A stretch of DNA of 64,000 bases from an uncultured Ruminococcus sp. GTDB lineage: Bacteria; Bacillota; Clostridia; Oscillospirales; Ruminococcaceae. The notes under the pieces are model-generated. The model did not search any database and was not told the DNA's origin. It saw only the letters and a list, made by a program, of their open reading frames with translations. Every line of letters begins with the position of its first letter. Position 1 is the stretch's first letter. Shown here one piece after another: positions 9,390-11,989 of this stretch. Both the position numbers and the translations under genes were made by a program. The stretch is from NCBI GenBank assembly GCA_902786965.1, contig CADAEJ010000010.1, positions 35,696 through 99,695 on the forward strand, given 5' to 3'.

Positions 9390-10762
9390 TTATCCGATGC
9401 AGTTTTCTTTGCCGTTCCAGCAGTAGGTGCAAAGCTTGCAGCCTTCAAGCTCGACTGCCTTGACAGTGCCCTCGAGCGACTGGAATTCAAGCGATGTGAG
9501 TTCAAGCCTGCGGCATATCTCATCTCTGAGCAGCCTGCCTCTTTGCGTGTTGGAATCGCTGTACTCGTTGATATATTTAACGCCCTCAACGCCCTCGTGC
9601 TCGTCGATTATCTGCCTTGCGATAAGCTCAAGCTCCGAATTGCTGCGTGAGAAGTTCAGGTATTTGCAGCCGTACATTATCGGCGGGCAGGCAGAGCGCA
9701 TATGAACTTCCTTTGCGCCGTTCTCATAGAGAAACTCGACCGTTTCTCTCATCTGAGTGCCTCTTACTATGCTGTCATCAACAAACAGCAGCTTTTTGCC
9801 TTTGATAAGGTCGTGTACGGGGATCAGCTTCATCTTTGCGACCTTGTTTCTCATCGACTGGTTGGTAGGCATAAAGCTTCTCGGCCAGGTCGGAGTATAT
9901 TTTATGAACGGTCTTGCAAACGGTATGCCGCTTCGGTTTGCATAGCCTATCGCGTGCGGGGTACCTGAGTCGGGAACGCCGCAGACGTAGTCAACATCGG
10001 GCAGCCTGCCGTTCTTGATATCGTTTTCCGCCATTATCATACCGTTTCTCATTCTCATAGCCTCAACGTTCTTACCCTCGTAGGTGGCATTCGGGTAGCC
10101 GTAATAAGTCCATAAAAATGTACAGATGCTCATTTTGTCGGTGCCCTCGGCAAGTATCTCGTAGCCGTCCTTGTTCAGCTTCAATATCTCGCCTGCCTTC
10201 ATCTCGTGGCAGGTAGAATAGCCAAGCTTCATATACGCAAAATCCTCAAACGAGAAACAGAAACCGTCTGATCTTTTTCCTATGAGTATCGGCAGCTTGC
10301 CTGCCTTATCCCTTGCGCAGATGACCGAATCCTTGAGCATGATGACGAGCGACATGGTGCCCTGTATCTTGCTTTGAGCATATCTGATGCCGTCAACAAA
10401 ATTGTCCTTTTGAGCTATCAGCGCACCGATAAGGTCTGCTGAATTTATCGAACCGCTGCTCATCGCTTCAAAATTCGCACAGCCGCTTTGAAGAAGCTCG
10501 TCTGCGATATCACTTGCGTTATGTATCACACCTATCGAGCATATAGCGTAAAGTCCCAGCTTTGAGCGATCTCAACATCTTTTTCAAATTTAGTACGAAA
10601 CGGAGAATTCTCAATGCTGTGGATATTCCTCTGAAAGCCCAGATCAGCGGAATAAGATGTCATACCGCCGCGCCTTGTACCCAGATGTGAATGATAATCC
10701 GTCCCGAAAAATACATCCTGAATGCAGTCATTAGCCGAAACTGCTCCGAAAAAACCACCCAT
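9390..10762 (-). pseudogene. purF: Amidophosphoribosyltransferase, frame broken by an apparent internal deletion
   Basis: Codes for the first committed enzyme of purine synthesis, in two frames. The 5' part (10762 down to about 10535) gives MGGFFGAVS, TDYHSHLGTRRGGM, NIHSIENSPFRTKFEKDVEIA and then runs into a stop. The 3' part, open from about 10565 in another frame, gives SKLGLYAICSIGVIHNASD and continues to the C terminus, with the PRPP loop KLLFVDDSIVRGTQ and a terminal CKLCTYCWNGKE. Family members have some 20 more residues between FEKDV and LGLYAI (a GIGCISD-type segment), so about 60-70 bases, not a multiple of three, seem missing near 10550. The N terminus is Met-Gly-Gly, without the Cys that is the nucleophile of classical PurF. 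Either a real lesion or an assembly error. Confidence 0.88.
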
Positions 10763-10813: not shown

Positions 10814-11311
10814 TCAGATATCCTTCAGTGTTTCCTGAAGAGCAGCATCCTTAGCAGCAACGCCGTCTATCATAGCCTGCTTTTCAGCCTCGAGCTTTTT
10901 GGAAAGCTCCTCATCGGAAAGCGCAAGCATCTGAATAGCGAGTATCGCAGCGTTCTTTGCGCCGTCGATAGCTACCGTAGCAACAGGTATGCCCGAGGGC
11001 ATCATAACAGTTGCCAGCAGCGCGTCCATACCGTCAAGTGCAGCAGACTTGCAGGGGATACCGATAACAGGCAGTGTTGTGTGTCCTGCGATAACGCCCG
11101 CAAGGTGCGCAGCCATTCCCGCAGCGCATATGATAACGCCAAAGCCGTTTGCCTTTGCATTTGCAGCAAACTCGCTTGCAAGCGCAGGTGTGCGGTGTGC
11201 GCTCATAACGTGGCACTCGTAATCAACACCGTAGTTTTTCAGCTCTGCTATCGCTTTTTTTACAACAGGCAGATCGCTGTCCGAACCCATGATCACAGCT
11301 ACTTTTTTCAT
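10814..11311 (-). CDS. purE: N5-carboxyaminoimidazole ribonucleotide mutase
   Basis: Converts N5-CAIR to CAIR, step six of purine synthesis. The 165-residue protein has the class I PurE motif set: [47 protein letters not shown] and [19 protein letters not shown]. The ATG at 11311 is chosen because GGAGG (11324-11320) is eight bases away; the ATG at 11317 would be only two bases away. It is the first enzyme gene of the operon and its ribosome site directly follows the T-run of the leader terminator. Confidence 0.97.
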
Positions 11312-11323
11312 TTTCATTACCTC

Positions 11324-11359
11324 CGAAAAACAAAAAACTGCAACTTGACCGTTGCAGTT
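11324..11359 (-). terminator. Attenuator-like terminator in the purine operon leader
   Basis: On the minus strand a perfect nine-base stem, AACTGCAAC-ggtcaa-GTTGCAGTT (11359-11336), runs straight into TTTTTG TTTTT and then the purE ribosome site. The terminator is therefore inside the operon leader, after the promoter and before purE. The stop codon of the leader ORF (11360-11358) overlaps the first two bases of the stem. Confidence 0.8.
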
Positions 11360-11483
11360 ATATTTTACCCGTATTTGTCTGTATGCGTGAAGACATAATT
11401 GAGTGCGCAAAAGCAAAGCGGTAAGTGCCGTGACAGCAGTATCCGCCGATTGCGTATGGAGTTGATGAACCGAAGATATTCAT
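11358..11483 (-). CDS. Possible 41-residue leader peptide upstream of purE
   Basis: A short ORF with a strong ribosome site, GGAGGG, five to six bases before its ATG at 11483. It starts MNIFGSSTPYAIGGY, continues CCHGTYRFAFAHSIM and ends NTGKI. Its TAA stop touches the 5' arm of the terminator that precedes purE, so a ribosome ending here would cover the stem. That geometry suggests a translated leader that controls readthrough. I know of no family for it. It may instead be a chance ORF; the position of the ribosome site and stop make me favour a real one. Confidence 0.5.
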   Translation of the reverse strand: MNIFGSSTPYAIGGYCCHGTYRFAFAHSIMSSRIQTNTGKI

Positions 11484-11554
11484 AAAAAGCCCTCCGCACG
11501 TGATTTTTGCGTTTACAAGCACGCCTTTTGTGCAACAGAAAAACTCACAATATA

Positions 11555-11583
11555 ATTGTACAATATTTGCTTTTAAATTTCAA
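11555..11583 (-). promoter_or_regulatory. Promoter of the purine operon
   Basis: Minus strand TTGAAA (11583-11578), 17-base spacer, TACAAT (11560-11555). The predicted start near 11548 gives a leader of about 235 bases before purE. I looked for a guanine, PRPP or ZTP riboswitch core in that leader and did not find one. Confidence 0.75.
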
Positions 11584-11667
11584 CACCCGCGCATATAAAA
11601 TTTATGTCAATTTCTTTCGACAGAATTGTGAATTTTAACCACGGCTCGTATAATGCTTATTCTTTTG

Positions 11668-11892
11668 TCACAAGAATTGGTTTCGTGAAAGCTGCTGCGC
11701 GTTTGTCATATCGTCCACAAGCTGCTGCATCTCGCTCACGGAATGAGCGTTGTGGCTGTCTCTTATAAGCTGCTGCTTCTGCACGGGCGAGAGCTTGTTG
11801 AAAACGTCAAACGCGAGCACGTTCTGCGCCATCGCCATAGAAAGCCCCAGCGGTATATCCTGCGGCGAGTAGACAGGCTTTATCTTTTTCAT
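11668..11892 (-). CDS. Small conserved protein of unknown function
   Basis: A 74-residue protein, MKKIKPVYSPQDIPLGLSMA at the start, then MAQNVLAFDVFNKLSPVQKQ and QQLIRDSHNAHSVSEMQQLV. The order of a PLGL-A-AQN stretch, a LS-xx-KQ helix and a final SxxEMQxLV helix recurs in small clostridial proteins I have seen without an assigned role. The ATG at 11892 follows GGAGGG by seven bases; the longer in-frame start at 11952 has no ribosome site. Its 5' untranslated region contains a seven-base stem, ACGGAAA/TTTCCGT, at 11916-11934. A -10-like TATAAT lies at 11947-11942 but no convincing -35 box accompanies it. Confidence 0.75.
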   Translation of the reverse strand: MKKIKPVYSPQDIPLGLSMAMAQNVLAFDVFNKLSPVQKQQLIRDSHNAHSVSEMQQLVDDMTNAQQLSRNQFL

Positions 11893-11989
11893 ATCATTCC
11901 CTCCTTTTTGTGATGACGGAAAAACTCTTTCCGTACCGCATATTATACCCACTATCTGCGATTATAAACACATAGTCCGAAAATTGCTG

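Follow-up and report, generated by a model that had tools for sequence, protein, structure and literature searches.

A candidate translation-coupled attenuator in the leader of purE in Ruminococcus and related Clostridia

Background

What controls purE in a Ruminococcus whose purE leader combines a short open reading frame (ORF) with an intrinsic terminator and carries no recognisable riboswitch? The question is raised by a window of 64,000 nucleotides, the whole stretch of DNA analysed here, from an uncultured member of this genus. An earlier note on this DNA had placed ahead of purE a 41-codon ORF with a good Shine-Dalgarno (SD) sequence and a perfect nine-base terminator, had pointed out that the stop codon of the ORF overlaps the first two bases of the terminator stem, and had suggested that the leader might sense translation status, an amino acid linked to purine synthesis or its own peptide.

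In the E. coli pyrBI operon, which serves nucleotide biosynthesis, a translated leader (pyrL) is followed by a terminator that a close ribosome masks, and pausing of RNA polymerase sets and enforces the coupling (PMC4824070, PMC5021804). In the same bacterium, a terminator located a few base pairs past a stop codon is described as nearly silent, being covered by the ribosome, and removal of the ribosome site together with the upstream part of the coding sequence restores it (PMC4824070). RNA polymerase of B. subtilis is reported to outrun the ribosomes (PMC9226507), so that coupling in a Firmicute would have to rest on a pause.

Results and discussion

Anatomy of the purE leader

The ORF, its SD and the perfect terminator described earlier are all present, and every element of the leader lies on the minus strand of the window (Table 1). 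Reading from 11583 to 11317, the order is promoter-like element, SD, ORF, terminator, T-tract (which reaches about 11326), second SD and purE, with a transcription start that would fall near 11548. The overlap between stop codon and stem likewise proved correct, the AA of the leader TAA being bases 1 and 2 of the stem. The SD and the ORF behind it are read directly from the sequence, and from them translation of the ORF is predicted; an SD-like stretch also stands 5' of the leader ATG in relatives, the weakest being that of G024. The window leader, terminator included, folds at a z-score of -3.64. At the far end of the leader, the start codon of purE may be the second ATG, at 11311, and not the one at 11317; the distance from the SD and some relatives point that way.

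Table 1. Features of the purE leader and of purE in the window, in the order of transcription
Feature	Position	Strand	Basis
Promoter-like TTGAAA-17-TACAAT	11583..11555	minus	Consensus scan; similar hexamers and flanks at 27 loci
Shine-Dalgarno GGAGGG of the leader ORF	11490..11495	minus	Sequence; 6 nt before ATG 11483
Leader ORF, 41 codons, ATG to TAA	11483-11358	minus	TAA = 11360-11358
In-ORF hairpin GGCGG...CCGCT, inner UGCU/GGCA	11417..11447	minus	Pairing, covariation and single folds in the genus
Putative RNA polymerase pause	11404..11414	minus	G-10 at 11414, RNA end C at 11405, +1 A at 11404; conserved columns
Intrinsic terminator AACTGCAAC-GGTCAA-GTTGCAGTT	11359-11336	minus	Perfect 9-bp stem, 6-nt loop
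purE	10814..11317	minus	Pfam AIRC (AIR carboxylase, PF00731) 6.2e-61

A further region of the minus strand, at about 11549-11620, upstream of and over the -10 element (AAATTTTATAT, GTGTTGAAATT, ATATTGTACAAT), shows strong conservation across the genus; an operator might be part of this block.

Conservation of the ORF-at-terminator layout

The outcome that the earlier note had named as speaking against its proposal, namely that relatives would lack the ORF or its overlap of stop and stem, did not occur: both are kept in the genus and in the family. Of the 29 genus genomes, 28 gave a PurE match, and at 27 of these 28 loci a terminator lies shortly before the gene. All 27 have an ATG ORF of 37-49 codons whose stop codon lies at -8 to -1 of the stem (+13 in one). 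Under a strict rule, which asked for an SD and for an ORF stop no more than 15 nt from the stem, 26 of the 27 loci were counted; dinucleotide shuffling of the 240 nt that precede the stem gave an expectation of 0.8. The 28th locus of the genus (G001, L203) has the same leader, with the stop at +13; its terminator stands about 530 nt upstream of purE, another stretch intervening between leader and gene.

Elsewhere in the family, 130 genomes outside the genus had a PurE match, and the purE upstream regions of 60 of them were fetched. Two of these loci were short and 19 of the 58 usable ones had no terminator by the rule used, leaving 39 terminator-bearing purE leaders; the strict rule was satisfied by 28 of these, the shuffles giving 1.45. 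A further named set, among the matches listed, comprised 80 loci, of which 43 lacked a terminator and 8 were repeats (two of them within the 43); in this set, which is not phylogenetically independent, 20 of the remaining 31 loci, Pseudoflavonifractor and Candidatus Enterenecus being represented, satisfied the rule against 0.65 expected. Of 75 stop codons, 65 are at -14 to 0 of the stem (mode -1) and 10 beyond the stem start. The frame that ends at the terminator is kept open across relatives; the peptide is hardly kept.

At the level of the class, 76 matches lay in genomes other than that of the window; 39 loci outside the genus were fetched from these, and 13 of the 39 had a terminator. The ORF was counted at two loci (0.28 expected), one of them in the order seen in the window. 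By eye, an ORF running into or near the terminator was recognised in G030, G046, G101, G104, G124, G148, G199, G210 and G182 among 21 loci viewed; the strict count holds only G182 and G199 of these nine. At the family loci L064 (G210), L066 (G124), L071 (G101) and L080 (G148) the short ORFs do not end at the base of the terminator but run into or through it, as does the pyrL ORF of E. coli.

The exact pattern of the terminator occurs once in 23 of the 29 genus genomes and was found in none of the other six. Within the 64-kb window, no second leader of the same design was found.

Riboswitches and PurR

The absence of a guanine, ZTP or PRPP riboswitch ahead of purE, stated earlier from inspection of the letters, was borne out by Rfam scans of the window and the leader, which had no match in the window at gathering score and none to the PRPP riboswitch in window or leader. 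Four leader matches at E<=10 were all at chance level and were set aside. In the genome to which the window belongs, no RF00167 (Purine) was found among the 150 of 194 first-look candidates that were scored, and no RF01750 (ZMP-ZTP) among the 68 of 68 scored; RF00167 was likewise not found in the 29 genus genomes, where scoring covered 93 of the 112-513 first-look candidates of each. Scanned at gathering score, 40 of the 60 family purE loci returned no Rfam match. In purE leaders of other families, 20 of the 39 class-level loci were scanned with Rfam, and seven of these 20 carry a riboswitch on the strand of purE, six of the ZMP-ZTP and one of the Purine type (L208, L210, L211, L212, L213, L215 and L223). 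By position, the leader ORF stands where a riboswitch is often found in other families, and one device may have replaced the other.

No PurR of the B. subtilis type exceeded the curated cut-off in the 29 genus genomes, 25 of which gave weaker matches. Most of these span only positions of about 128-239, which would fit other phosphoribosyltransferases; the best two start at 80-82, and one weak match covers 189-250.

Evolution of the leader peptide

In 17 chosen pairs, which overlap in part and are not phylogenetically independent, pN/pS ranged from 0.17 to 1.66 or was infinite for the leader, compared with 0.02-0.13 for purE. Two pairs had no synonymous change in the leader (G025/G021, with 7 nonsynonymous changes, and G005/G027, with 2). 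Synonymous change was lower in the leader than in purE in 16 of the 17 pairs, the exception being G028/G013, which fits constraint on the RNA itself. Neither these ratios nor the frame changes among leaders indicated the purifying selection on the peptide expected of a ribosome arrest peptide. A role of the peptide as the signal, or as a trans-acting small protein, was rejected in view of pN/pS together with the frame-independent motifs described below.

The Gly-Tyr-Cys-Cys-His stretch singled out earlier does exist, but only the nearest species share it. As also noted, the leader ORF has no codon run of the Trp or His type, and neither a regulatory codon run nor an amino-acid run was shared across the genus leaders. 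Pairing of an antiterminator with the terminator arm was not found on average (mean z -0.15, 27 leaders), though single leaders can pair, at z-scores of -1.54 (the window), -3.06, -1.62 and -1.82. The suggestions that the leader senses a particular amino acid or its own peptide were not upheld: the peptides diverge freely, nucleotide motifs are kept despite frame shifts, regulatory codon runs are not shared, and antiterminators do not stand out. The third suggestion, that translation status is sensed, may hold within translation-coupled attenuation.

A covarying hairpin and a putative pause site within the ORF

In the genus, the ORF contains a hairpin with the consensus GGCRG...CYGYC. The alignment comprised 27 cores, 26 of them genus rows (one duplicate omitted) and one from another genus; 97.8% of its cells are paired, and three of the five pairs are changed on both sides. 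The percentage paired and the covariation score were above those of all 500 shuffles (0/500), and the numbers of changed pairs (38/500) and pair types (337/500) were not clearly so. Covariation in the leaders of relatives, a check proposed with the original observation, is present in this hairpin as judged by the covariation score. Seven sequences have A-U in place of G-C at one pair; in the six of them that belong to the genus, both substitutions hit first positions of codons and change the encoded residue. Length and sequence of the loop are variable. The outer stem appears in single folds of 26 of 27 genus 45-mers, G007 being the exception.

Twelve nucleotides, gapless in the 27 genus rows, separate the outermost pair from the putative RNA end, and hairpins of NusA-stimulated pauses are described as lying 10-13 nt upstream of the pause (PMC12288461). 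Columns of this site are conserved in the genus, with G at -10 in 19, G at -2 in 22, C at -1 in 23 and A at +1 in all 27 of the 27 sequences, and pausing of the polymerase would be its function. The stricter pattern GGN6TGYR is absent from the genus (0/27; shuffles 2.7), and the weaker GN6TGYR is modestly enriched there (17/27 versus 11.4).

Outside the genus, no hairpin was found before the motif (mean z +0.30, n=29). Among 48 non-genus leaders, 29 contain GGN6TGYR, against 5.1 +/- 2.1 in shuffles, and 19 do not; GGN6TGYA occurs in 25 (shuffles 2.9). The base after the motif is A at 20 of 27 distinct sites, compared with 96 of 255 for all TGYN in these leaders. At 31 non-genus loci the pause-like site lies a median of 21 nt upstream of the stem, and the last GGN6TGY uses all three frames (21, 7 and 3 loci); L130 and L149 keep the motif across a 1-nt frameshift. 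This tolerance of frame argues for a signal that is read by the polymerase. A conserved consensus is on record, in the accounts available, for the elemental pause, and reportedly consists of G-10, TG and Y-1, usually with G at +1; GGN6TGY(A) of the non-genus leaders resembles it.

The fraction of A in the genus is 0.33 after the pause site and 0.21 before it, a contrast matched in part by the ends of ordinary ORFs in the window (0.333 versus 0.271); when the 12 nt next to the stem are omitted, the post-pause segment is A-rich at only 10 of 15 non-genus loci. Purine content of the leaders is 0.459 and 0.480, against 0.525 in ORF segments of the window. The purine-poor leaders and the A-rich post-pause segment are real but small effects, and partly general.

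Proposed mechanism and alternative explanations

On the strength of the sequence features and of the analogy, we consider that the purE leader may be a translation-coupled transcription attenuator working like that of E. coli pyrBI, with a probability of roughly 0.66. The leader would probably be a brake released by the ribosome rather than the source of a functional peptide. We infer translation, pausing, masking by the ribosome and the direction of control as follows. RNA polymerase would transcribe the leader and pause inside the ORF (in the genus, after the hairpin), with A as the next base to be added. Given a pause of sufficient length, the leading ribosome would catch up and, at or near the stop codon, cover the 5' arm of the terminator; the hairpin would be blocked and purE transcribed. 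With early escape from the pause, or with the leader untranslated, the terminator would form and purE would stay off. As to the signal, a tentative suggestion is the supply of ATP, or of purine NTPs in general, felt through slow escape from the pause: low ATP would lengthen a pause whose next base is A, which, as a guess, gives the right sign for feedback. The A-richness that follows the pause site would agree with this, but ordinary ORF ends show it in part as well. The leader could then, equally tentatively, be the purine counterpart of pyrBI in Ruminococcus-like Clostridia, a shortage of ATP or purine NTPs prolonging the pause at G-10...GY before A and turning purE on.

Among other explanations, an RNA of the riboswitch kind that escaped recognition is unlikely. 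The hairpin and a GCACUC element would serve as the binding site of a purine compound or would sequester the leader SD, and a ligand would in this way control translation of the leader and through it the terminator. The conserved, covarying hairpin and the fold of the window leader (its terminator included) speak for such an RNA, as does pairing of GCACUC with the SD region, which is slightly stronger within loci (-8.00 kcal/mol) than between loci (-7.26 kcal/mol; permutation p 0.019); with pairing weakly favoured in this way, riboswitch-like control of leader translation has a small probability. However, the pairing is weak in several loci (e.g. -2.9 and -3.5 kcal/mol), the loop is variable in length and sequence, unlike an aptamer, Rfam gave no match at gathering score in the window or in 40 family loci, and leaders outside the genus have the ORF, the terminator and the pause motif with no hairpin found before the motif. 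It is quite unlikely, too, that the leader reports the availability of ribosomes or the rate of initiation rather than purines, the pause merely enabling coupling. Such general sensing would have the very anatomy of the pyrBI-like attenuator, and the sequence does not name the signal; yet the single-copy exact terminator in each of 23 genus genomes and a purine riboswitch undetected among the genus candidates scored suggest purine-specific control, and the window holds no second case.

Ribosome stalling on the leader peptide or on codons for purine-linked amino acids, of the trp/his or TnaC type, appears very unlikely. Core residues (Tyr, Gly, His-Ser) do recur within the genus, and Ser and Cys make up 14.5% and 6.6% of genus leader residues, but the high leader pN/pS, the motif kept in different frames, the missing regulatory codon run and the mean antiterminator z near zero (-0.15) all run counter to it. 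That the terminator is an ordinary upstream one with a chance ORF is barely credible: short ORFs are common in any sequence, yet the layout occurs far above shuffles in three sets of loci.

Relation to known systems

Like pyrBI, the purE leader has a short, SD-bearing ORF that ends at a terminator. It differs in serving a purine rather than a pyrimidine operon, in Clostridia, and in a putative pause with A at +1, unlike the pause sites of pyrBI, which are UTP-sensitive and U-rich. Its stop codon lies at the base of the stem, whereas the pyrBI terminator is described as lying within the leader gene (PMC4824070). The tlrB and vmlR leaders of B. subtilis combine, in a Firmicute, an upstream ORF (uORF), pausing and a terminator, as the purE leader would if its putative pause is real, and there the pause is reported to give time for translation of the uORF (PMC12288461, PMC9226507); these leaders respond through antibiotic-induced ribosome stalling and alternative structures, whereas neither a stall motif nor an antiterminator was found in the purE leader. 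Attenuators of the trp/his type share the leader ORF, the intrinsic terminator and, as a putative feature here, the pause, and differ in having a regulatory codon run and an alternative antiterminator, neither of which was found here. The ZTP and purine riboswitches of the seven class-level loci precede the same gene on the same strand, but no aptamer was found in the purE leader of the window. Two further candidates appear in PMC11109978: the fthC uORF, which likewise joins a uORF, hairpins and a terminator ahead of a one-carbon gene, but in Streptococcus and not in a purine operon; and the FGAM-synthase motif, an RNA element that likewise precedes a purine operon and is given there as a weak riboswitch candidate, with no uORF described in the part of that report available. 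Among the open-access literature matches listed, none concerned a leader-ORF attenuator for a purine operon.

If the pyrBI-like reading is right, translation coupling governs purine synthesis in a large gut clade, in the position that riboswitches often take in other clostridial families, and regulation that depends on coupling exists in Firmicutes, the phylum in which B. subtilis has runaway transcription. With ATP or purine NTPs as the signal, this would be metabolite sensing through the coupling of polymerase and ribosome. Since the pause-like element is conserved and sits at a known gene, sensing of NTPs through pausing can be tested directly.

Genes flanking the leader

Downstream of purE lie a broken purF and then purM and purN, the last two identified by Pfam. 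The purF sequence (9390-10762, minus strand) is split between two frames, one with an N-terminal piece of 76 aa and the other with a C-terminal piece of 379 aa, and it lacks a stretch relative to the intact G016 copy; a true mutation and an assembly error are both candidate causes. On the other side, a small ORF of about 75 aa (11668-11895, minus strand), for which no Pfam match was obtained, ends just upstream of the purE promoter, and sequence resembling its C-terminal part was found upstream of purE in several relatives.
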